This document shows positions 52,857-63,983 of a DNA stretch of 64,000 bases, one piece after another (position 1 is the stretch's first letter; every line of letters begins with the position of its first letter). Under the pieces are notes generated by a model. The model worked only from the letters and a program-made list of their open reading frames with translations. It was not told the origin of the DNA and ran no database searches. The position numbers were made by a program, and so were the translations under genes. The DNA is taken from assembly GCF_008079445.1 (NCBI RefSeq), contig NZ_VRYH01000002.1:558001-622000 (forward strand), read 5' to 3'. The stretch is from Aidingimonas lacisalsi. Its GTDB lineage: Bacteria > Pseudomonadota > Gammaproteobacteria > Pseudomonadales > Halomonadaceae.

Positions 52857-54245
52857 ATGAATTATTTACAACACTTTGATTCCTATGACGTTGTTGAGGT
52901 TTGCGTTGCCGGAGCAGGGGATTTCGGTACAGGGATCCTGCGGCAATCGAGTGACATGAAAGCGCTATCTGCGCGTGTTGCTGTCGACATCAGTGCCGAT
53001 GCCGCACACCAGGCACTGGTTCGTTCGGGGGTGCCGAATTCTCGAATTATGGTATGCCATTCGCCGAATGATGCTGAAAAAGCTTGGGATTCCGGCTATT
53101 TCATTGCATCCGGCTCGCTTGATGCAGTCATTGATCTGCCATTCCATATTCTCGTCGAGTCTACTGGTATACCAGAGGTGGGAGCGAGGCACGCATACGA
53201 TGCCATCATGGCGGGTAAGCATGTTGGCATCGCGACCAAGGAAACCGAGTCCGTCGTGGGCCCGTACCTGACCCATCTGGCCAGGAGCAAGGGGCGTATC
53301 TTCACGCCGTTGGACGGTGACCAGCCGAGCTTGTTGGTCGGTTTAGTGACATGGGCGAAAACGCTGGGATTCGAGATCATCGCTGCCGGCAAGAGCAGTG
53401 AATACGACTTCGTCTGGGATGCCAGAGCTCGGCAGATCGAGTGCAATGGCAGCCGCTATCCCGCACCGGCCATGGACGAGTTGTGGTCGCTCCCGGAAGG
53501 GGCGGAAAGCGATAGCGTCATGGATCGGTCGACGTCGCTGGCGTCCATACCGCTGATTTCCGTTCCGGACCTGTGCGAAATGACCAATGTGGCCAATGCG
53601 ACGGGGCTACTTCCGGATCGCCCCGATTTCCATGCCGCGGTGTTGCGCATCCCTGAAGTTCCGACCGTACTGGACACCGTCGGCAACGGTGGGCTGCTGG
53701 AAGGCTGTGAGCGACTCGAGGTATTCAACTGCCTTCGCCAACCCGATGAGGTCAGCTTTGCCGGCGGTGTCTTCGTCGTGGTGCGTTGCAAGGATGCCGA
53801 GGCTTGGGAGTTGCTGCGCGGCAAGGGGCATATCCTCAGCCGTAGCGGGCAAAGCGCGATGATTTATCTGCCCCGACACTTGCTGGGCCTGGAAGCGCCC
53901 ATATCGCTGCTCGACATCGTGATCAATGGGCTGAGCTCCGGTGGCGATGAGGCCACGGCGCCCAGGGTCGATTTGGTGGCTCGTTCCTCCTGCGCGCTTG
54001 CTGCCGGGCATACGTTCGAGATGAGAGGACATCATCGTCATATCGAAGGACTCCGGCCGGAAGTGCATTCGGCTCAGCCGCTGGATCGGGGGGGAGCCGC
54101 ACCGTTTTATCTGCTGCCTGGCGCCCGGTTGACGAGGGCGGTTGCAGCGCATGAGGTCATCCCGTTTTCCGCCCTGGAGGTCGCTGACTCCATGCTGCTG
54201 CGTTTGCGCCGTGAGCAGGACAGGATGTTCCAGCGGGAGATGTGA
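52857..54245 (+). CDS. NAD(P)-dependent dehydrogenase-like protein with C-terminal SAF domain
   Basis: This 462-residue cytoplasmic protein has a Rossmann-type N-terminus (VCVAGAGDFGTGILRQ) and a homoserine-dehydrogenase-like nucleotide domain (LVESTGIPEVGARHAYDAIM, GKHVGIATKE). A SAF domain lies at about residues 375-450 (ALAAGHTFEMRGH, GARLTRAVAAHEVIPFSAL). Such proteins occur in sugar-acid and polyol catabolic operons, and some databases name them FlgA-like because of the SAF domain. The reaction is not known to me. It leads an operon with the tctC, tctB and tctA genes and is probably repressed by the divergent GntR protein. Confidence 0.8.
   Translation: MNYLQHFDSYDVVEVCVAGAGDFGTGILRQSSDMKALSARVAVDISADAAHQALVRSGVPNSRIMVCHSPNDAEKAWDSGYFIASGSLDAVIDLPFHILVESTGIPEVGARHAYDAIMAGKHVGIATKETESVVGPYLTHLARSKGRIFTPLDGDQPSLLVGLVTWAKTLGFEIIAAGKSSEYDFVWDARARQIECNGSRYPAPAMDELWSLPEGAESDSVMDRSTSLASIPLISVPDLCEMTNVANATGLLPDRPDFHAAVLRIPEVPTVLDTVGNGGLLEGCERLEVFNCLRQPDEVSFAGGVFVVVRCKDAEAWELLRGKGHILSRSGQSAMIYLPRHLLGLEAPISLLDIVINGLSSGGDEATAPRVDLVARSSCALAAGHTFEMRGHHRHIEGLRPEVHSAQPLDRGGAAPFYLLPGARLTRAVAAHEVIPFSALEVADSMLLRLRREQDRMFQREM
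53050..53059. promoter_or_regulatory. GntR-type operator, site 3 (inside the dehydrogenase gene)
   Basis: TGGTATGCCA matches TGGTATACCA at 9 of 10 positions and is flanked by A and T to give ATGGTATGCCAT. It lies about 195 bases inside the coding region. Confidence 0.35.
53165..53174. promoter_or_regulatory. GntR-type operator, site 4 (inside the dehydrogenase gene)
   Basis: TGGTATACCA is a perfect copy of site 2 and extends to the 12-base palindrome CTGGTATACCAG. It lies about 310 bases inside the coding region and 415 bases from site 2. It could support looping or act as a roadblock. Confidence 0.45.
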
Positions 54246-54457
54246 TGCGAGCAAACGTTAGCGTGACACCCATGTCATGGGCGGCATGTCGGTCGTATCT
54301 CGGTGCTGCCTGTCTCCAGACCCTGTGGTGCGAGACGACCTGATCGATACGGCAAGGAGGTGGGGTTAACCGCAAAGAAAACAAGTCGCCAACACATTGC
54401 GGCGCTGATACGAGGCGCCAAAGTGAAGTGACAACAATGAATTGAAAGGAGCACATT

Positions 54458-55426
54458 ATGTCTAGCAAGAACAACATCGTCGTCCTTACGTCCCTCGGCG
54501 TTGCCATGATGATGGGCGCGTTTCAGGTATCTGCCAGCGATGAAGCTGAGGACTACCCGAGTGGCGATCTCGAATTTCTGGTCGCTGCAGGGGCCGGTGG
54601 CGGGACCGACAACTTCACCCGCACGGTCAAGCCGATGCTGGAAGAGCGATTGGATACGTCGATCAAGGTCGTCAATCTGCCTTCAGCGTCAGGCGCGTTG
54701 GCGCATCAGCGTACGGCCAACAGCGAGCCGGATGGCCATACTCTCGATTTTGCATCGTCGACGCTGGTGACATCCTTGGCAGCGGGGCAGAACCCGACGG
54801 GGCTGGATCAACTGACCCCGGTGGCGCGCATGCAATCCGATGTCATGACACTGATCGTCAATCCCGATAAGCACGAGGATTTCGAGGCGTTCAAGACGTA
54901 TGCCGAGAACAATCCTGGCGAAGTGGTCATTGGTGGCACGCACGCCGCGAGCCCTGACAAGATGGCTTTCCTCTCATTCCGCGATGCGAGCGGATTGGAT
55001 ATCAGCTTCATCCCCTATGATGAAGAGGGCAGTGTGTCATCCAATGTGCTGGGCGGAAACATCGATGGTATGTTCGGCGAAATCAGCTCGACGCTCAGTT
55101 ATATTGAATCCGGTGATATGAAGCCAATTCTGGTGTTTGCCGAAGAGCGTCTGGAGAACTTTCCCGAGATTCCGACCACCGTCGAAAAGGGCTGGGATCT
55201 GACCGATGGCAATGAGCGCGGTGTGTTCGTTAACGCCGAGACACCAGCGGAAATCGTCAGTCAGATTGAACAGGCACTGAAGGCGGTTTATGACTCGGAT
55301 GAGTATCAGTCTTATGAAGAGAAGGTGAACCTTCATTATCGCGAAGGCTGGATGGGAAGTGAGGAATATCAGCAGAAGCTGGAAGAAAACCTGGAACTGT
55401 ATAGCCGTCTGATCGAACAGACCTGA
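54458..55426 (+). CDS. tctC: Tripartite tricarboxylate transporter substrate-binding protein (TctC/Bug)
   Basis: This 322-residue periplasmic binding protein of the TctC/Bug family has a signal peptide cleaved near VSA-SDE. LEFLVAAGAGGGTDNFTRTV is the family opening, and KVVNLPSASGALAHQ and SFIPYDEEGSVSSNVLGG line the ligand cleft. These proteins bind carboxylates and related acids. It lies 212 bases after the SAF-domain gene and before tctB. The binding pocket cannot be assigned. Confidence 0.92.
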   Translation: MSSKNNIVVLTSLGVAMMMGAFQVSASDEAEDYPSGDLEFLVAAGAGGGTDNFTRTVKPMLEERLDTSIKVVNLPSASGALAHQRTANSEPDGHTLDFASSTLVTSLAAGQNPTGLDQLTPVARMQSDVMTLIVNPDKHEDFEAFKTYAENNPGEVVIGGTHAASPDKMAFLSFRDASGLDISFIPYDEEGSVSSNVLGGNIDGMFGEISSTLSYIESGDMKPILVFAEERLENFPEIPTTVEKGWDLTDGNERGVFVNAETPAEIVSQIEQALKAVYDSDEYQSYEEKVNLHYREGWMGSEEYQQKLEENLELYSRLIEQT

Positions 55427-55459
55427 ACATCGGGTATCACGTCATACCTGTTCCAATGT

Positions 55460-55482
55460 GGCTGGTCCAGGAAGGGCCAGCC
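55460..55482 (+). other. Hairpin between tctC and tctB (possible attenuator)
   Basis: GGCTGGTCC pairs with GGGCCAGCC (9 bp with one G-T pair) around AGGAA, 33 bases after tctC. There is no T-run. It may protect the tctC 3' end from nucleases or slow transcription, which would keep the binding protein in excess. Confidence 0.5.
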
Positions 55483-55565
55483 TATACTCCGAATCGGCAA
55501 TGATCCATACCATACTTCGCGGTGTCGACGGTTAGCGACTCACTCGCGTTGAAACGAGCTGAATC

Positions 55566-56081
55566 ATGAGCAGACACATCTATATTTTTTCATGCACATT
55601 GATTGCCGTATCACTGGCCTATCTCATACCAACGGTTCAGTTGCCTGGTGCTGAAGAAGTTTCGACATTCATTGGCCCTCGCCTATGGCCACTTGTCCTG
55701 TTGATCCTGTTACTGGTACTGACCGTTTCACTCATGATTACCACATTGGTGCAAGATAGGAAACGCAAGGATGCGCAGGAACCAGGCGATATAGAAGAGA
55801 ATGATTCCTCGCATGAGGGATACGAGGATCACGCTGTACCGTCGAATGGTCTTTTGTCATTGCTGTTTACTTACCGCCATTGGATCGTCTTGGTTCTCAC
55901 CGTCATCTATACGGTGATGATACAAATTATCGGATTCCTGGTGGCCACCGTCATGTTCTCTTTCTTGTGCACCATGCTGTTGGGTGCCAGAGGGAAGGTG
56001 GCAATCGTGAGTACGACGGTCATTGCAACGATGCTGGTCCAGATCGGCTTCGTTTACCTGTTGAGTATTCCATTGCCTTGA
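55566..56081 (+). CDS. tctB: Tripartite tricarboxylate transporter small permease (TctB)
   Basis: This 171-residue inner-membrane protein has four hydrophobic segments (at about residues 8-22, 40-60, 105-125 and 140-165). A charged, acidic cytoplasmic loop lies between the second and third (RKRKDAQEPGDIEENDSSHE). Sequence conservation in TctB is low, so the call rests on topology, GPRLWPLVLLILLL and position between tctC and tctA. Confidence 0.85.
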   Translation: MSRHIYIFSCTLIAVSLAYLIPTVQLPGAEEVSTFIGPRLWPLVLLILLLVLTVSLMITTLVQDRKRKDAQEPGDIEENDSSHEGYEDHAVPSNGLLSLLFTYRHWIVLVLTVIYTVMIQIIGFLVATVMFSFLCTMLLGARGKVAIVSTTVIATMLVQIGFVYLLSIPLP

Positions 56082-56136
56082 CCCACCGCAGTCTTGAAAC
56101 TCGGTGGCTCTTTCCCAGTATCTCTTGGAGATAACG

Positions 56137-57639
56137 ATGCTAGATGGTTTCCTGAGTGGACTGTCCGTTGTCCTGCAACCCATGAACCTGCTGATTTTGA
56201 TGTCAGCCGTGTTCATTGGCTTCGTCGGTGGTGCATTGCCAGGGATCAGCGGCGTCATCCTTGTCGTCATTCTGCTACCCGTCACTTATGGCATGGATGC
56301 GACGTCGGCGTTCATGCTGCTGACGGCGATTTATGGATCGACTGTGTTCTCAGGGCTGATTACCGCGATTCTCTATCGCGCGCCGGGTACGCCGGAAGCG
56401 GTAATGACCTCGTTCGATGGTTATCCGATGACGCAACGAGGCGAAGCTGGCAAGGCGTTGGGAATCGGTGTGTTGAGTTCTGCGATTGGCGGATTGGTCG
56501 GCACGATTGCGTTGATCGTGTTCACGCCTTTACTGGCGTCCGTGGCATTGAAATTTTCCTCCCCTGAATATTTTGCTCTGGCAATACTTGGCCTGACAGT
56601 GGTCGCGTCGCTGGGTGGCAAGCTGATGTATGGCCTGATCGGTGCCGGCATGGGCTTGTTCATTGCCACGATCGGTATCGATCCGCTGACGGGGACGAGT
56701 CGTTATACGTTTGGCAGCTTGAATCTGGCTGAAGGGATCGGGCTGATTCCCATGATCGTCGGTCTTTTTGCCATTTCCGAGGTGATGAAGCGCGCAACGG
56801 GTGGGCATGTTCATCAGCCATTGACGAAGGTCAACGTGAAGATATTCGATTCCACCATCATGCGGAAGATAGCTGCCACGCTTTCCCGGTCATCCATCCT
56901 GGGGGTTGCCATCGGCATATTACCAGGTATTGGGGCCAGTACCGCTGCGATGGTGAGCTATAGTGAAGCCGTTCGCTGGTCGAAGCACCCTGAAGACTTT
57001 GGCAAGGGCATTCCAGAAGGGATCGCGGCTCCTGAAGCAGCGAACAATGCGGCGGCAATGGGGGCTTTGGTACCGCTATTCGCTTTGGGCATTCCCGGTA
57101 GTGGTACAACAGCGATCATCCTGGGGGCCTTTATCATGCATGGCCTGCAGCCAGGTCCGATGTTCATGGCTAGTAGTAGCGAGCTGATTTATGCCGTGTT
57201 CGCTGGGTTGTTCATCGTCAATTTCATGATCTTGCTATTTTCGAAACCCTTCATCACGCTGTTTACCAAACTGTTGAATATCCCTTATTCGGCCTTGGGC
57301 CCCATTATCATCATGTGCTGCATCGTGGGGACTTATTCGGTTCGTAACTCGATGTTCGACGTGTGGTTGATGCTCGGTTTCGGTGTGCTAGGGTTCTTGT
57401 TGGAAAAACTCAGATTTCCCCTGGTCGCGATTATTCTTGGCTTAGTTCTTGGGCCGATTGCCGAAAGCGAATTGCGTCGTTCACTTGCAATGTCTCAGGG
57501 CGATATGACGATATTTATGTCAAGGCCAATCAGTGCAACGTTGATAGGTATTGCATGTGCATTACTGACGGTCTCAATCTTGGTTCCTTTATACAAAAGG
57601 TACAAGAAAAGACGTTTGTATAGTGAAAGTGCAAGTTGA
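56137..57639 (+). CDS. tctA: Tripartite tricarboxylate transporter large permease (TctA)
   Basis: This 500-residue inner-membrane permease has about twelve membrane segments. Family motifs are GFVGGALPGISGVILVVILL, then SGLITAILYRAPGTPEAVMT and the mirrored ILPGIGASTAAMVSYSEA with ALGIPGSGTTAIILGA. The ATG at 56137 has GGAGAT seven bases upstream. Energy comes from the ion gradient rather than ATP. It ends the plus-strand operon, and no clear terminator follows. Confidence 0.94.
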   Translation: MLDGFLSGLSVVLQPMNLLILMSAVFIGFVGGALPGISGVILVVILLPVTYGMDATSAFMLLTAIYGSTVFSGLITAILYRAPGTPEAVMTSFDGYPMTQRGEAGKALGIGVLSSAIGGLVGTIALIVFTPLLASVALKFSSPEYFALAILGLTVVASLGGKLMYGLIGAGMGLFIATIGIDPLTGTSRYTFGSLNLAEGIGLIPMIVGLFAISEVMKRATGGHVHQPLTKVNVKIFDSTIMRKIAATLSRSSILGVAIGILPGIGASTAAMVSYSEAVRWSKHPEDFGKGIPEGIAAPEAANNAAAMGALVPLFALGIPGSGTTAIILGAFIMHGLQPGPMFMASSSELIYAVFAGLFIVNFMILLFSKPFITLFTKLLNIPYSALGPIIIMCCIVGTYSVRNSMFDVWLMLGFGVLGFLLEKLRFPLVAIILGLVLGPIAESELRRSLAMSQGDMTIFMSRPISATLIGIACALLTVSILVPLYKRYKKRRLYSESAS

Positions 57640-57930: not shown

Positions 57931-59733
57931 TCAGGTGTTTTCTATTTCCAGGAGCGCGTTCAGCGGCATGCCGTCGAGCGTGGTGGTATCCAAGCCTAGC
58001 AGGCGCGCGAACGTGGCCCCGGTATTGTCCATTCGCTGGATCCCGCGTTGAGTATCGAATGGCAGCCAGGAGCCGGGCCGTACTCCCTCACCGTGAAGGA
58101 TCGCCAAGCCATGGTTAGAGGCGAACGTAGTGCTGGCGGACGGTACCTGGGGGCCATGGTTGGCTCCGGCACTTTCCACGGCAGCGACGGTATCGCCACG
58201 CCGGTTGACGCCCCACACGAACCCCGAGGCGTAGGCGAACAGCACATCGCCGGCGGCGTCGCCCCAGTAACCCAGCACGCTGGCGTCCTGCTTCTTGAGG
58301 GCGAAAGCGACCACGTTGCGTTCGCCGTGCGGGGTATCGATGTACCATGTGCTCAAGGCCTTGTGGATGCGCGTCTGCACCTCAGCCACGTCAGTCTCGG
58401 GGACAATGCCACCTTCCAGTGTGTCTCGATTGACGAAGATTTCCAGGCCGCCGCGCTCATCCTTGAGAAAGGCCTGGCTGCATTGATGTATCGGTCGGCC
58501 GTGCTCGTCGAGCGCGCAGAGTCCGAACTCGGCTAGCCGTCGATGGATGTCGCACAGGTAATGGTTCGGTACGTCGCCATGGTCCGAGGCGAGCACGATC
58601 ACGGTATCGTCACGTCGCCCGGCCAGCAGGCGGCCTACCGCGTCGTCGAGCACCTGGTATCCGCGGCGGATGGTGTCCAGGTAACGTTCCTGCTGTTCGG
58701 GGGTGTAAAAGGGGGATTCCGGGTCGCAATAGGCCAGGCAGGTGTGGTGGGTCTCGTCGTTGAGACGGAACACCGTGGCGAACAGCCGAAAGTTCTCTTC
58801 GTTGAGCAGGGTCAAGGCGCTGTCGACGAGCCACTCCAGTTGATAGCGGCCCTCTTCGAAACTGGTCTCGAAATAGCGAGTGTCCGGATCCGCCGACACG
58901 GCCCACTTGGAAATGAACGGCCCGTGACGCTGAATCAGCTTTTCGGCCAAGGTCGGGTGATTACTCAGCCGTTCGGGAATGGTGACCTGCGATTGCAGCA
59001 GATCCACGTGCCATCGCTCGGCATCGTAGGCCAGCAGCTTGAAGCGCACGTATCCTCGCTCATTTCCCGCCTCGACGGGCAACCAGTCGCTCCACTCACC
59101 TACACCCAGTGTCGCTGTGCTCTCCCTGACTGTCAGGCGCAGCCGCGCATCGGCTGCCGGACTCAATGTCATCGCCAAGGTGTCGCCACCATTGAGCCGG
59201 ATCGCGGTATGATAGTGAGTCTCCGAGCGTTCGATCGCGTGGCGATTGTGCTTCTGGTGATGGGCGAGGCTACCGCTCGGTGGCCAGCCCAACGCCTCGT
59301 TCTGAGGGACGTCGGGCCACTGCGAGAGGTCGGTGCTGTGTAGGCTGGCGGAGGCCATTTCCATCGGTGCCGGGCCTTTGCCGCTCCAGAACGGCGCCAG
59401 GCAGAGATCGTCCCTACCGTTGGGCTTGAGGGACTCGGGAAAGTGTACCAAGGCACACTTTTGTCCCGCTTCGGCCATTAATTCCAGCAAGTGCCGCGTC
59501 CCGCTGGGCGAGAGGCGTTGCCCTACCCAACTGTTCCCCGGTGCCTGCCCGGTGAGAAAGTTGACGAAGTTGGTATCTCCCCAGGTCGAGATGTAAGGCA
59601 TCAGTCGCGTCGTTCCCCCCTCATGACGCAATCGCTCGATATTGGGCAGCACCCCTTCGTGGCAGAAACGATCGACCAGCTCGGGGATCAGACCGTCGAC
59701 ACCCAGCACCAATACCTTTTTCGCATTATGCAT
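57931..59733 (-). CDS. Alkaline-phosphatase-superfamily phosphodiesterase/pyrophosphatase-like protein
   Basis: This 600-residue protein has no signal peptide, so it acts in the cytoplasm. Metal-binding motifs of the superfamily are visible: VLVLGVDGLIPELVDRF (first Asp), the nucleophile region ISTWGDTNFVNFLTG, FRLNDETHHTCLAY (Asp and His), VLASDHGDVPNHY and ASNHGLAILHG. The central part (about residues 130-290) is an insertion without recognised motifs. It is the last gene of an operon with an enolase-superfamily enzyme and a tripartite transporter, so it may free a phosphate ester or a phosphonate. The substrate is unknown. Confidence 0.82.
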   Translation of the reverse strand: MHNAKKVLVLGVDGLIPELVDRFCHEGVLPNIERLRHEGGTTRLMPYISTWGDTNFVNFLTGQAPGNSWVGQRLSPSGTRHLLELMAEAGQKCALVHFPESLKPNGRDDLCLAPFWSGKGPAPMEMASASLHSTDLSQWPDVPQNEALGWPPSGSLAHHQKHNRHAIERSETHYHTAIRLNGGDTLAMTLSPAADARLRLTVRESTATLGVGEWSDWLPVEAGNERGYVRFKLLAYDAERWHVDLLQSQVTIPERLSNHPTLAEKLIQRHGPFISKWAVSADPDTRYFETSFEEGRYQLEWLVDSALTLLNEENFRLFATVFRLNDETHHTCLAYCDPESPFYTPEQQERYLDTIRRGYQVLDDAVGRLLAGRRDDTVIVLASDHGDVPNHYLCDIHRRLAEFGLCALDEHGRPIHQCSQAFLKDERGGLEIFVNRDTLEGGIVPETDVAEVQTRIHKALSTWYIDTPHGERNVVAFALKKQDASVLGYWGDAAGDVLFAYASGFVWGVNRRGDTVAAVESAGANHGPQVPSASTTFASNHGLAILHGEGVRPGSWLPFDTQRGIQRMDNTGATFARLLGLDTTTLDGMPLNALLEIENT

Positions 59734-59764
59734 ATCATGCTCCCTTGATGAGTACGTGCGCGCT

Positions 59765-60910
59765 TCAGAGTCGGTAACGGTCGATGACGTTGCGGTCGAT
59801 CTCGATGCCCAGCCCCGGTTTGTCGGGCACCTCCACGCAACCCCGGGCGTTGAGCGCGAACTGCCCGCCGATCAGCTCCTGACGGAAGGGGTGCGCCGAC
59901 TGGTCGTATTCGAGCATCGGCTCGTCCGGGTTTAGCGACAGCGGTTGCGGTGGTAGCGTGGCAATGAACTGTACGGCGGCGGCGAGTCCGATGCCGGTGC
60001 CCCACACATGGGGAATCAGCGGCACGTGCCACGCCTGGGCAAGTGCGGCGATCCTGCGGCACTCGGTAAAGCCACCGGCGGCCCCCAGGTCGGGTTGGAC
60101 GATATCCAGCGCCCCTTCGCTGATCAGCCCTCGATAGCCGATCTTGGAATACTCGTTTTCGCCGGCGGCCACATAAGTGCGCGACACGCCCTTGAGTTCA
60201 CGGTAACCGGGATGGTTCTCCGGGCTGAGTGGCTCCTCGAAGAAGTGCACCCGCGTATCTTCCAGTTCCATGAGGATCCGCCGTGCCGCCGGCACGCTAT
60301 AGGCGCAGTTGGCGTCCATCATTAGCTGCACGTCGTCACCGACCGCCTCTCTCACCGCGCGCATGTCGTGAATGTCCGAGTCGACACCGAAACCGGTCTT
60401 GATCTTCATCGCGCGGTAGCCGTTGGCCTGGTGACGCAGTGCCTCTTCCACGATGTCCTCGGGATAGCACCCGTCTTCGCGGCGGTAGAAGCCGGTTGCA
60501 TAGGGGCGGATCTCGCGCCGAAACGCGCCGCCCATGAGCCGATGGATCGGCTGGCCCAGCGCCTTGCCGAAAAGGTCCCATAGCGCAATGTCTACCGCTG
60601 CTATTCCAAATAGTGCTGCACCTTTCTGGCCGTAGGGGCGGGTGTGGTTGTACATCTCCTCCCATAGAACTTCGCGATCGAATGCCGAGCGGCCGATGAG
60701 CAACGGCTTGAGGGCGTACTCGACGACGGCCTGGGCGACCTGGGGTGGCTGAAGGCCATGATTGATCGATTCCCCCCAGCCGATCAGCCCATCCTCTGTG
60801 TGGACCTCGACCAGCATGGCGGTGCGCTGATGCACCCACCCTTGGGAGAAGGCGAAGGCCCGCTCGAGCGGTGCGGCCAGAATGTGCGTCTTGATGTCGG
60901 TAATGATCAT
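59765..60910 (-). CDS. Enolase-superfamily (mandelate racemase type) acid-sugar dehydratase-like enzyme
   Basis: This 381-residue cytoplasmic enzyme abstracts a proton alpha to a carboxylate with the help of Mg. Visible catalytic parts are MKIKTGFGVD (Lys-x-Lys), the metal ligands in LMMDANCAYS, HFFEEPLSP and AAGENEY, and the His base in PHVWGTGIGLAAAVQ. This set fits the mandelate-racemase subgroup, which includes sugar-acid dehydratases. It lies between the tctA and phosphatase genes on the same strand, so the likely substrate is a hydroxy acid brought in by that transporter. Confidence 0.88.
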   Translation of the reverse strand: MIITDIKTHILAAPLERAFAFSQGWVHQRTAMLVEVHTEDGLIGWGESINHGLQPPQVAQAVVEYALKPLLIGRSAFDREVLWEEMYNHTRPYGQKGAALFGIAAVDIALWDLFGKALGQPIHRLMGGAFRREIRPYATGFYRREDGCYPEDIVEEALRHQANGYRAMKIKTGFGVDSDIHDMRAVREAVGDDVQLMMDANCAYSVPAARRILMELEDTRVHFFEEPLSPENHPGYRELKGVSRTYVAAGENEYSKIGYRGLISEGALDIVQPDLGAAGGFTECRRIAALAQAWHVPLIPHVWGTGIGLAAAVQFIATLPPQPLSLNPDEPMLEYDQSAHPFRQELIGGQFALNARGCVEVPDKPGLGIEIDRNVIDRYRL

Positions 60911-60947
60911 GATGTCGCGTATCCAGTAACGAATGCGGGAAAAGGGA

Positions 60948-62468
60948 TTATTTGGCAGCGTCGGTTTCGACGTGCCGGGTGTTCACTGATGACCGCCTTC
61001 GTTGGGCGATGGCCGACCACACGGCCCAGACGATGACCAGCACGAGTAACGAGAACAGCGTCATGGAAATGGTGCTATGGGTGAAAAAGCCGAGGAACTC
61101 GCCGCGCTCGATCAGCAGGCCGCGACGTAGCGAGCTTTCCAGCTCCGGACCCAGCACCATCCCGATCACCAGCGGCGCCAGTGGATAATCCGCGCGGCGC
61201 AGTGCATAGGCAAAGATGCCAGTCACGGCAGCGACCACCAGATCGAGCGGATTGCCGCGCACCGTCGCGGCGCCGATGAAACTGAACATGATGATGGCGG
61301 CCATCACATAGCCTTGATGCAGCCGGAACAAGTAGCGAAATAGGCTGATGGAAGGCTTGCTCAAGATCAGCATGGCGACGTTGACGATGATCAGCACGAC
61401 GAACAGTGAGTAGACCGTTTCTGCCTGGTCGACCATCAAGCGCACACCCGGGGTAATGCCATGGATGACCATCGCGCCCATCATCATTGCCGTCACGACA
61501 TCGCCTGGAATGCCAAGAGCTAGCGTAGGGATGAAGGAACTACCGGTCACCGCATTGTTGGAGGACTCCGACGCGATGAGGCCATCCGGCTCGCCCTGGC
61601 CAAGGCGATCGCGGCGCGGTGATAGCTTCTGCGCAGTGGCATAGCTCATGAACGCTGCAGCCGCTGCCCCGGTACCCGGCAACGCCCCGACGAAACTGCC
61701 GATGAACGAGCCGCGGATCAGTTCGATCAGGCGCTTGAAACACTCGCCCGGACCGGGAAAGCGCAACTTGGCTTCCGGTATTGTCGCGCCGGGATCGTTG
61801 CGCGAGGAAAAGCGCACGAAGACTTCCGATAGTGCGAAGGCACCGACGACGACCGGAATTAGCGTAAAGCCTGACGATAATGTGTAGCTACCAAAGGTGA
61901 AACGATCGCCTCCGGTGATCGGGTCCGAGCCGACCATGGCGAGAAAGAAGCCGATCATGCCGCATATCAGTCCCTTCATGACACTGCCCTTGGAAACGCC
62001 CACGATGCACATCATCGCCAGGCAGATGAGGGCGAAGACTTCGATCGAGCCGAAGTTGACGGCGAACTTGGCGAGCTGCGGCGCGCATAAGATCAGTATC
62101 ACGCAGGAGAGCACGCCGCCGAAGAAGGATGCGAACGTTGCCCAGCCCAGCGCTTCGTCGACGCGGCCCTGCTGGGTCATGGGGTAGCCGTCGAACGTGG
62201 TTGCCGCCGATTGGGGCGTGCCGGGCGTGTTGATGAGAATGGCGGTAATCGAGCCACCGTAGACCGAGCCGCAATAGACACCGATCAGCAGCGCCATGCT
62301 GGTAATGGTATCCATGCCGAAGGTGAAGGGAAGAAAGATGGTTAGCCCCACCACTGACCCGAGGCCCGGCAGCCCTCCGATGATGATACCGGTCCAGGTA
62401 CCGACGACGATGGCGAGCAACGCCTGCCAGGTGAACGCATTGCCTACCGCGGCAAGAATGATATCCAT
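60948..62468 (-). CDS. tctA: Tripartite tricarboxylate transporter large permease (TctA), second system
   Basis: This 506-residue inner-membrane permease has about twelve membrane helices. Motifs are IIIGGLPGLGSVVGLTIFLP, GSITAILINTPGTPQSAATT, FVGALPGTGAAAAAFMSYA and ALGIPGDVVTAMMMGAMV. It is clearly diverged from the TctA encoded at 56137-57639, so the two are not a recent duplication. The ATG at 62468 begins one base after the tctB stop codon; a GTG at 62483 would overlap tctB. The C-terminus is basic then acidic (QRRRSSVNTRHVETDAAK). Confidence 0.93.
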   Translation of the reverse strand: MDIILAAVGNAFTWQALLAIVVGTWTGIIIGGLPGLGSVVGLTIFLPFTFGMDTITSMALLIGVYCGSVYGGSITAILINTPGTPQSAATTFDGYPMTQQGRVDEALGWATFASFFGGVLSCVILILCAPQLAKFAVNFGSIEVFALICLAMMCIVGVSKGSVMKGLICGMIGFFLAMVGSDPITGGDRFTFGSYTLSSGFTLIPVVVGAFALSEVFVRFSSRNDPGATIPEAKLRFPGPGECFKRLIELIRGSFIGSFVGALPGTGAAAAAFMSYATAQKLSPRRDRLGQGEPDGLIASESSNNAVTGSSFIPTLALGIPGDVVTAMMMGAMVIHGITPGVRLMVDQAETVYSLFVVLIIVNVAMLILSKPSISLFRYLFRLHQGYVMAAIIMFSFIGAATVRGNPLDLVVAAVTGIFAYALRRADYPLAPLVIGMVLGPELESSLRRGLLIERGEFLGFFTHSTISMTLFSLLVLVIVWAVWSAIAQRRRSSVNTRHVETDAAK

Positions 62469-62469
62469 G

Positions 62470-62907
62470 TCACACCGCTCCACTGGTCAAGAGTGTCGGC
62501 AGCCGAATCAGCAGCACGTGGTGGAACAAGAACCACAGGCCACCGGCGATTACGAGCGTGCCCACCGCCAACGGCAGTGGGCGGCGCAGGCGAAACAGCC
62601 ACAGTGTCAAGGCGACGAGTGGCAGCGAGGGAAGCAGAAATCCCAGGCTGGCCACTGCGATGGCGGCGATGAGTACGGCCGCCATCAGCACGGGCAACGG
62701 CGACAGCGACCTGCTGCTCATCGCCGTGGCGTGCGACAACTCGACGAGAGTGATCGCCAGGGCGACCCCACACCACAGCGTCAGTACGACACGTGGTACC
62801 AGCATGGCATCGGTCGGGCCGCGCCAGGCATGGAACGCCAGCACGATGCCGACAAGGAACAAGGCCAGGCCCAGCAACACCCTGGGGTTGGCCAATCTCG
62901 CAATCAT
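62470..62907 (-). CDS. tctB: Tripartite tricarboxylate transporter small permease (TctB), second system
   Basis: This 145-residue protein has four predicted membrane helices (VLLGLALFLVGIVLAF, VVLTLWCGVALAITL, VLMAAVLIAAIAVASL and LAVGTLVIAGGLWFLF). TctB proteins vary greatly, so topology, length and the position between tctC and tctA decide the call. The ATG at 62907 has GAGGTAAG five to six bases upstream; the frame could start 14 codons earlier. Confidence 0.82.
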   Translation of the reverse strand: MIARLANPRVLLGLALFLVGIVLAFHAWRGPTDAMLVPRVVLTLWCGVALAITLVELSHATAMSSRSLSPLPVLMAAVLIAAIAVASLGFLLPSLPLVALTLWLFRLRRPLPLAVGTLVIAGGLWFLFHHVLLIRLPTLLTSGAV

Positions 62908-62941
62908 GACGCTTACCTCGCTGAATGATGGGGTTGCGGGC

Positions 62942-63871
62942 TTATTCAATCAGGCCGACATCGCGTAATACTTGCTTGTTGGCGTCGTAACGCTGCTTCA
63001 CGAAGGCTTCGAAGTCTTCCGGTCCGAGATAGGCGATGCCGGCCTTGGCATTCTCGGCGAAAGACTTGAATCGATCAGATTCAAGCGTGGCCTTGCATGC
63101 GTCGGAATACTGGGTCTTCCGCTCTTGCGAAATACCCTTGGGGGCCACTAAGCCCTGCCAGACGGCGAATTCCATCTCCGGAAGGCCCAGTTCATCGATG
63201 GTCGGCACATCCTCGTAGCCCTCGATGCGATGGTCGGCAAAGACCGCCAACGGCCGGAGATCATAGTTCGCGAGAATGGTCTCGGTATCGGCCATGATCT
63301 GGATCTCGTCGCCCGCTAGCGCATTCATGGCCGGCCCGGAACCGCTGTAGGGAATGTGTGAGGCCTCGAGGTCGCTTTCGCCCACCAGGGCGGCGACCGC
63401 CAGTTGCGGCAGCGTGCCAGGCCCCGAGGAGCCATAGAGCAGCGGCTCCTCTTGGGAGGCTGCGACGAGCTGGTCGAAGTTTTCGATGTCGGACGACTGG
63501 GACACCATCAAGAACATCGGGTTGGACGTGGTCCGACAGATGTAGGTGAAACTGTCCGGCCCGTAGGGGAGCTGTTTCAGCGACGGCTGGATGCTGAGCG
63601 CGCCGGCCGGCTCGTAGCCGATAATGTTGGGGTTGCCTTCGCTGTTGGCGACCTCGGCGGTTCCTTCCGTTGCACTGGCGCCAGCCACGTTACGCACTAC
63701 CGAAGTGACACCGAGATTGTCGGAGAAGGGCGGCTCGAAACTACGTGCGACGATGTCCGTTGCACCACCTGCAGCAAAGGGCACGATGATGTCTAAAGTG
63801 TCCTGGGCAAACGCAGAATGCGAGGTGCCAGCGAGCATCAGCAGGATCAGAGAACGACGTACAGGCTTCAT
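62942..63871 (-). CDS. tctC: Tripartite tricarboxylate transporter substrate-binding protein (TctC/Bug), second system
   Basis: This 309-residue periplasmic binding protein has a signal peptide MKPVRRSLILLMLAGTSHSAFA cut before QDTLD in shorter form. DIIVPFAAGGATDIVARSFE is the Bug-family opening, VVRNVAGASATEGTAEVA follows, and SHIPYSGSGPAMNALAGDEI is in the second half. The ATG at 63871 has GAGGAAAT upstream; longer frames run into AT-rich promoter DNA. It leads the five-gene operon tctC-tctB-tctA-dehydratase-phosphatase. Confidence 0.92.
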   Translation of the reverse strand: MKPVRRSLILLMLAGTSHSAFAQDTLDIIVPFAAGGATDIVARSFEPPFSDNLGVTSVVRNVAGASATEGTAEVANSEGNPNIIGYEPAGALSIQPSLKQLPYGPDSFTYICRTTSNPMFLMVSQSSDIENFDQLVAASQEEPLLYGSSGPGTLPQLAVAALVGESDLEASHIPYSGSGPAMNALAGDEIQIMADTETILANYDLRPLAVFADHRIEGYEDVPTIDELGLPEMEFAVWQGLVAPKGISQERKTQYSDACKATLESDRFKSFAENAKAGIAYLGPEDFEAFVKQRYDANKQVLRDVGLIE

Positions 63872-63882
63872 TGTTAATTTCC

Positions 63883-63896
63883 TCGTATCGCTACGA
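63883..63896. promoter_or_regulatory. Operator-like palindrome next to the second tctC, proximal site
   Basis: TCGTA-TCGC-TACGA has perfect 5-base arms. It lies 12-25 bases before the tctC start codon and touches its ribosome-binding site. It shares both arms with the distal site at 63970-63983. Confidence 0.55.
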
Positions 63897-63969: not shown

Positions 63970-63983
63970 TCGTAGCGCTACGA
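63970..63983. promoter_or_regulatory. Operator-like palindrome upstream of the second tctC, distal site
   Basis: TCGTAGCGCTACGA is a perfect palindrome and extends to 16 bases (63969-63984). It is centred 87 bases from the proximal copy. The DNA between them is very AT-rich and must hold the tctC promoter, so looping by one regulator is plausible. Confidence 0.6.

Follow-up and report, generated by a model that had tools for sequence, protein, structure and literature searches.

The locus described here raises the question of what an enzyme with a phosphatase fold does beside a sugar-acid dehydratase in a transporter operon. It lies in a stretch of 64,000 nucleotides of Aidingimonas lacisalsi (positions 558,001 to 622,000 of contig NZ_VRYH01000002.1, assembly GCF_008079445.1; hereafter the window), in which five minus-strand genes, tctC-tctB-tctA-DHT-ALP, fill positions 57931-63871. 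DHT (59765..60910, 381 amino acids) encodes an enolase-superfamily sugar-acid dehydratase or cycloisomerase, and ALP (57931..59733, 600 amino acids) encodes an NPP-fold enzyme of the alkaline phosphatase superfamily, for which we propose a lactonase role. The genes overlap or are closely spaced (overlaps of 8 bp for tctC/tctB and 14 bp for tctB/tctA, gaps of 37 bp for tctA/DHT and 31 bp for DHT/ALP), bearing out the compact, one-directional operon described in the initial annotation. The genes, their families, the conserved residues, the co-occurrence and the operators were read directly from sequence, and on this basis we tentatively propose, at a level short of probable, a sugar-acid route of the Entner-Doudoroff type, with ALP as a putative metal-dependent lactonase lacking a covalent nucleophile.

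ALP matched PF01663 (Phosphodiest) with 50.9 bits (cut-off 23), and no NCBIfam model matched it. Its AlphaFold model (mean pLDDT 87, pTM 0.90) was most similar to ENPP6 (Z 28.8) and XaNPP (Z 28.7-28.8), with an rmsd of 2.9-3.2 over approximately 340 residues. In the top ten rows of the structural comparison, 338-349 of the 600 residues aligned with NPP enzymes of 373-393 residues, confirming that the large insertion noted earlier is real; it forms a beta-rich block of about 170 residues (approximately residues 125-292; 58858..59361, minus strand). This block is also found in distant homologues that retain the nucleophilic threonine (motif GVGEWSDW), and is therefore not tied to loss of the nucleophile. 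When it was modelled alone (mean pLDDT 73.8), no PDB match was obtained at E <= 0.001, and its assignment to a known fold was dropped. ALP thus resembles XaNPP, ENPP6 and phosphonoacetate hydrolase (PF01663) in fold and metal ligands, but differs from them in the insertion and in the missing threonine.

The predicted metal ligands D13, D326, H330, D384, H385 and H526 were invariant in 17 of 17 aligned rows; in the alignment that contains 26 of the close homologues, the row of the distant L053 is partial (loci are denoted by L numbers throughout). Position 52 of the window protein is a glycine (codon 59578..59580, minus strand), and in the family profile it pairs with a threonine of XaNPP 2gsn, the catalytic nucleophile of NPP enzymes, and with an alanine in entry 7mw8. 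Two matches of the fold search, 6c02 and 5veo, are labelled as inactive Thr-to-Ala forms of sister enzymes. Among 35 close homologues, 26 of them aligned and nine compared by motif only (L015, L025, L113, L118, L134-L137 and L142), the motif at this position was W-G-D in 34 and W-S-D in one (L116); ALP is split by frame breaks in L015 and L025, and part of it reads N in L118. The threonine motif P-T-x-T-P is present in 20 of 23 distant loci and had no match in three (L053, which begins inside the ALP gene at a contig end, L054 and L056); the ALP of L119 (Bacillota) also keeps the threonine. Residues D53, E327 and H329, which adjoin active-site positions in the sequence, are confined to the clade. 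ALP therefore has the NPP profile and all six metal ligands and has no Thr or Ser nucleophile, and it is probably a member of the NPP fold family and not a working NPP-type phosphodiesterase. As none of the 35 close homologues has the threonine, with Gly or Ser standing in its place, a plain phosphatase or phosphodiesterase reading was set back. Opening of a lactone by metal-bound hydroxide requires no covalent nucleophile.

A scan of the genome collection with ALP gave 45 loci. The ALP of Aidingimonas halophila, whose genome is close, is 90% identical to that of the window. In all 22 close named loci (L012-L033, at least 47% identity) DHT was found beside ALP or one gene away: directly before it in 20 halomonad loci, and separated from it by one MFS gene in Alicyclobacillus (L030) and Pullulanibacillus (L032). 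Among 23 distant loci (24-30% identity), the fetched stretch contained a DHT relative (31%) in one (L039); this distant branch (L034-L056) comes mostly from metagenome genomes of Poribacteria, Latescibacterota, Gemmatimonadota and Dehalococcoidia. Seven of 97 relatives have a close ALP, and these seven are also the ones with a close DHT. The ALP-DHT gene order is more than chance, and the pairing of a dehydratase with a phosphatase-fold enzyme, earlier singled out as unusual, holds throughout the close named loci.

In another gammaproteobacterial family, taken to be Enterobacteriaceae, ALP was present in 11 of 295 genomes. Seven of the 11 loci have an intact DHT adjacent to ALP or separated from it by one gene, and in one (L116) DHT is in pieces. 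DHT was not found in the fetched stretches of L113, L117 and L134, and the genomes of the latter two (G941 and G1136) gave no DHT match at E <= 1e-60. Some loci appear to be decaying, as stops occur inside ALP in L113 and L142 in addition to the fragmented DHT of L116. Within the phylum of the window, ALP was matched in 8 of 398 genomes at E <= 0.001, with one new strong match (G132), the only one among 315 genomes of its order. In the phylum of Alicyclobacillus 27 of 398 genomes matched, none besides Alicyclobacillus itself better than 8e-36; its order gave two of 59 (itself and G1447), and the family of Pullulanibacillus one of 26 (itself). No ALP match was found in viral contigs, and no E. 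coli genome matched the ALP-DHT stretch of L065. The plasmid collection yielded three records for the window ALP, all Mesorhizobium at 25-29% identity with genes annotated as aminotransferase, transketolase and radical SAM, and four for the ALP of L065. In Salinicola corii, approximately 2.7 kb downstream of the full ALP gene, a C-terminal ALP piece (L018:14455-14586, the same fragment as in L011) is 73% identical to residues 553-596, and represents a partial duplication.

DHT carries PF13378 (MR_MLE_C) and PF02746 (MR_MLE_N), both above the Pfam cut-offs. Seventeen NCBIfam families matched it and none reached its cut-off, so that the enzyme is assigned to none of these isofunctional models. 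Its nearest solved structures were Gci (D-galactaro-1,4-lactone cycloisomerase; 4ggb, also 4hpn) and DauB (3,6-anhydro-D-galactonate cycloisomerase; 5olc), with 40% identity to Agrobacterium Gci and 38% to DauB. DHT shares the base and acid of this family (aligned with Gci K166 and H296) and its metal ligands (D194, E220 and E246). Asp87, which is common to Gci and DauB (PMC5698469, also the source of these residue roles), is replaced by proline in the DHT rows of the window, Halomonadaceae, Bacillota and Photobacterium; rows from Enterobacteriaceae-type loci, Pantoea, Caballeronia and Rhizobium have Asp. A tree of 21 rows, with weak inner support, leaves the grouping of window-type with Enterobacteriaceae-type DHT unsettled. 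These comparisons place DHT in the Gci/DauB neighbourhood, and it may share an activity on a lactone or anhydro acid. Against the D-galactonate dehydratase model NF010624 it scored 208.4 bits, below the equivalog cut-off of 311, and a full-scoring DgoD is encoded elsewhere in the genome; a plain D-galactonate dehydratase was rejected on these grounds.

The neighbours of DHT suggest that its product is 2-keto-3-deoxygalactonate (KDGal), since L136 and L137 continue ALP-DHT with DgoK and DgoA. The gene order in both is galactonate-type MFS-GntR-ALP-DHT-DgoK (PF05035)-DgoA, with the MFS protein scoring 431.5 and 431.8 bits on TIGR00893 (cut-off 395) and DgoA 295 and 292 bits on NF006600 (cut-off 207). 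Similar clusters surround DHT relatives in Photobacterium (TRAP-DHT-DgoK-DgoA, DHT 56% identical) and in Pantoea At-9b (DHT 45% identical, with DgoK and DgoA). A DGOK gene was present in seven of seven relatives with both ALP and DHT, a weak support given that 42 of 90 other relatives have one too. In the window's own genome a canonical dgo operon lies on the same contig, approximately 20 kb past the low end of the window, and encodes DgoD (654.9 bits, cut-off 311), DgoA (261.2 bits, cut-off 207) and DgoK. DHT is thus not needed for plain D-galactonate. The acids that would give KDGal by their stereochemistry include D-galactonate, D-talonate, D-gulonate and D-idonate, and as DgoD already serves D-galactonate the substrate of DHT is likely to be a different acid or a substituted one. 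Compared with the dgo (De Ley-Doudoroff) operon, the relatives L136 and L137 share the carrier, the regulator and the downstream enzymes, which the window's genome also possesses, but DHT takes the place of DgoD and ALP has no dgo counterpart. In the plasmid survey, five of 93 records with a DHT relative were examined for neighbours; two of these gene sets (L144 and L145, on Pantoea and Caballeronia plasmids) join DHT relatives of approximately 45% identity to a dehydrogenase annotated as a 'C-terminal binding protein' and to RraA-family proteins, possibly another sugar-acid route.

Evidence bearing on a lactonase step came from relatives in which a short-chain dehydrogenase/reductase (SDR) accompanies ALP. 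An SDR gene directly follows ALP in L013, L027, L117 and L134 and is found in the same locus in L118 and L135; no SDR resembling sulfoquinovose (SQ) dehydrogenase is present in the window operon. The best PDB match of these proteins was sulfoquinovose 1-dehydrogenase (233 bits for L117 and 246 for L013, the latter matching the uncharacterised 4lvu nearly as well with 241), and the best NCBIfam model for both, D-xylose 1-dehydrogenase, was matched with 282 and 301 bits against a cut-off of 400. The sulfonate-binding residue at position 152 of the P. putida SQ dehydrogenase (PMC12133307) corresponds to a basic residue in all six, Arg in L013 and L027 and Lys in L117, L118, L134 and L135. At this position 4lvu has Leu and a glucose-dehydrogenase-like SDR of Shinella has Ala; Arg also occurs in an SDR of Pantoea whose other contacts differ.

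The ALP-linked SDRs are 53-59% identical to those of four alphaproteobacterial plasmid clusters (four of 18 plasmid records with an SDR relative were examined), which we infer from their annotated gene content to be clusters for the sulfoglycolytic Entner-Doudoroff (sulfo-ED) pathway, known from P. putida SQ1 and Rhizobium leguminosarum (PMC9594981, PMC12890257). In all four, an SMP-30 lactonase gene immediately precedes the SDR gene. As described for the sulfo-ED and sulfofucose pathways, the lactone made by an SQ-dehydrogenase-type SDR is opened before the dehydratase acts (PMC12421959). ALP occupies this lactonase slot of the gene order in L013, L027, L117 and L134, and the fetched ALP loci gave no match in a tblastn search limited to the SMP-30 (PF08450) and MRJP lactonase families (E < 1e-3). 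A further counterpart is perhaps provided by L135, with the order ALP(+)-GntR(-)-DHT(+), and Pantoea SO10 (L146), where a beta-propeller-family protein (PF03022, with SGL below cut-off) on the plus strand precedes a minus-strand GntR gene (65% identical) and a plus-strand DHT gene (75% identical, one stop).

The likeness to the sulfo-ED-like clusters lies in the SDR of relatives, perhaps including its basic residue 152, and, as set out below, in the regulator and its operator; the ALP-DHT operon differs in that ALP replaces the SMP-30 lactonase, that the dehydratase is of the enolase type and not the IlvD/Edd type, and that the window operon has no SDR. No PF03328 aldolase was recognised among the scanned neighbours. 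The sulfofucose Entner-Doudoroff pathway of Paracoccus, which acts on a galacto-configured sulfosugar, is similar in combining an enolase-superfamily dehydratase with an SDR and an ABC importer, but its characterised lactonase is of the SMP-30 type (PMC12421959). Several candidate clusters for that pathway lack an obvious lactonase according to its authors, in whose main text the word 'phosphatase' occurs twice, each time as a reagent (PMC12421959).

Genes for likely desulfating enzymes also lie near ALP in relatives. AtsK-like dioxygenases are encoded in L117, L118 and L134 (368 bits to 1oij for that of L117), none of them reaching the cut-off of the NCBIfam model for taurine dioxygenase. In Halomonas sp. 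EAR18 (L033) there is a sulfatase (PF00884, 151 bits) with the motif C-V-P-A-R (C-x-P-x-R), presumably the formylglycine motif; the same locus has a KdgM-type porin gene (PF06178; L033:11874-12629) after ALP. The set of TauD/AtsK, sugar ABC and SDR genes seen with ALP in L117, L118 and L134, two of which (L117 and L134) lack DHT, looks like a separate sulfur-scavenging or sulfosugar system. The initial annotation had proposed a route for a phosphorylated or sulfated hydroxy acid; a sulfo or sulfate link survives, through relatives only (the SQ-dehydrogenase-like SDR, the dioxygenase and the sulfatase), while a role of the phosphatase-fold enzyme as the phosphate- or sulfate-cleaving step is not supported.

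A divergent LacI-family gene lies just beyond the window edge (L067:8166-9224), and between it and tctC are two operator sites, an exact palindrome TCGTAGCGCTACGA at 63970..63983, conserved upstream of relatives, and a second copy with one mismatch at 63883..63896, just 5' of the tctC start. With up to two mismatches allowed, the window contains two matches to TCGTAGCGCTACGA where 0.12 are expected. The initial annotation mentioned neither this regulator nor the lost nucleophile of ALP nor the canonical dgo operon past the other end of the window. The LacI gene flanks the operon in all 20 named halomonad loci (L012-L029, L031 and L033), and each has at least two such sites near the operon, one of those in L026 being beyond the intergenic stretch. 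This LacI protein shares 41-44% identity with the regulators of three sulfo-ED-like clusters and 26-30% with four further LacI proteins encoded in the loci; the ALP operons and these three clusters have the operator core TAGCGCTA in common. Gluconate-type LacI regulators also use a core like TAGCGCTA, so that the LacI link is evidence for an aldonate-like effector only, and it was not accepted as evidence for a sulfosugar.

In the route that we propose, whose activities, order of steps and substrate, together with the lactonase role of ALP, are predictions from sequence, the TTT transporter would import a sugar acid or its lactone into a De Ley-Doudoroff or Entner-Doudoroff-type pathway. ALP, as a di-metal NPP-fold enzyme without a covalent nucleophile, would open an aldono-lactone by means of metal-bound hydroxide, and DHT, with Mg2+ and its Lys/His pair, would then dehydrate the acid to KDGal or a C6-substituted analogue. 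DgoK and DgoA, encoded by the dgo operon elsewhere on this contig, would finish the route in the window's genome, and in relatives with an SDR an aldose dehydrogenase would form the lactone from a sugar bearing an anionic group. A narrower proposal, that ALP belongs to a clade which lost the covalent nucleophile and uses metal hydroxide to open aldonolactones with an anionic (sulfo or sulfate) group, and that it fills the missing lactonase step of a galacto-configured sulfosugar or sugar-acid route ending in KDGal, we consider unlikely.

Several observations weigh against a lactonase. The chief objection is that 18 of the 20 halomonad operons, including that of the window, keep ALP with no adjacent SDR, so that a lactone could reach ALP only by import, whereas acids are the expected substrates of TTT and DgoT-type carriers. 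The two genes also occur apart, ALP being found with an SDR and no DHT in L117 and L134, and DHT with no ALP on the same replicon in Photobacterium (from the plasmid scan with ALP). In Pullulanibacillus, where the neighbours include a PfkB kinase, the aldolase exceeds the cut-off of the Eda model (173.8 bits, cut-off 156) and falls short of that of the DgoA model (161.7 bits, cut-off 207), which fits a galacto product less well. The beta-propeller protein of L146 begins with a TAT-like sequence and could be part of a neighbouring ABC operon. A literature search of titles and abstract openings showed no lactonase with the alkaline phosphatase superfamily fold. It is because most halomonad operons have no SDR, and because DHT exists without ALP, that the lactonase reading is held only tentatively.

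The chief rival, which appears rather unlikely, is that ALP is still an ester hydrolase, with metal-bound water cleaving a sulfate or phosphate ester of either the sugar acid or the product of DHT, and with DHT specific for the esterified acid. This would suit a member of the phosphatase/sulfatase superfamily whose nearest fold relatives are phosphodiesterases; it would explain why ALP is needed where there is no SDR, as well as the presence in L136 and L137 of DgoK, which would need a free 6-OH, and it agrees with the sulfatase and dioxygenases of related loci. It is opposed by the lack of a conserved Ser, Thr or Cys nucleophile at the ALP site and by the likely desulfating enzymes being separate genes in L033, L117, L118 and L134, the same two observations that leave the earlier reading as a phosphate- or sulfate-cleaving step unsupported, and removal of a phosphate that DgoK would add again would be wasteful.

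ALP might instead supply DHT with its substrate as a metal-dependent isomerase or epimerase, for example by lactone isomerisation or by C2/C3 epimerisation; this would also be compatible with a lost nucleophile and kept metals, which suit non-hydrolytic chemistry. Gli is a lactone isomerase that would act before Gci, the nearest relative of DHT. The Gci pathway includes Gli beside Udh (PMC5507952). Here the downstream enzymes DgoK and DgoA point to the monoacid KDGal and not to a diacid, and there is no KdgD among the five genes. We know of no precedent for isomerase or epimerase chemistry in this fold, and regard such a role as distinctly unlikely. That the operon is an ordinary D-galactonate operon in which ALP is an accessory or a non-catalytic passenger seems improbable: L136 and L137 do resemble dgo operons with DgoD swapped, and DHT does score 208 bits on the galactonate dehydratase model, but this is below the cut-off of 311 in a genome with a full-scoring DgoD, the metal ligands of ALP are invariant, and close ALP and close DHT are found in the same relatives.

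The TTT (tripartite tricarboxylate) transporter preceding DHT was assigned from three families, each above its Pfam cut-off: the substrate-binding protein TctC (62942..63871, minus strand, 309 amino acids; PF03401, 110.8 bits, cut-off 27), the small membrane subunit TctB (62470..62949, minus strand; PF07331, 33.1 bits, cut-off 29.1) and the large membrane subunit TctA (60948..62483, minus strand; PF01970, 461 bits, cut-off 28.9). The ATG at 63871 was used as the tctC start; the open reading frame list has an earlier TTG. A TTT transporter is encoded in 19 of the 20 halomonad loci, with an SSF carrier added in five, and an MFS carrier is found in L026, L030 and L032. Eight Enterobacteriaceae-type loci (L065, L113-L116, L118, L136 and L137) have the L065-type MFS carrier, L135 a sugar-porter MFS, and L117, L118 and L134 a sugar ABC transporter. 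The neighbour 3' of ALP is convergent and 291 bp away, and no terminator-like site was found in this gap. A second, convergent TTT operon (52857-57639, plus strand) consists of a DRL-family oxidoreductase gene (PF21135, 76.6 bits) followed by tctC, tctB and tctA, and it is also close to the ALP operon in L012 and L025.

No description of an ALP-DHT sugar-acid route was found in the literature searched by keyword. If the lactonase reading is true, a phosphatase fold would have been turned to carbonyl (lactone) chemistry merely by dropping its covalent nucleophile, and ALP would be a candidate for the kind of lactonase step that several sulfofucose clusters lack (PMC12421959). If it is wrong, the conserved ALP-DHT pair, which ranges over Halomonadaceae, the family taken to be Enterobacteriaceae, and Bacillota, would still mark a sugar-acid route undescribed in that literature.

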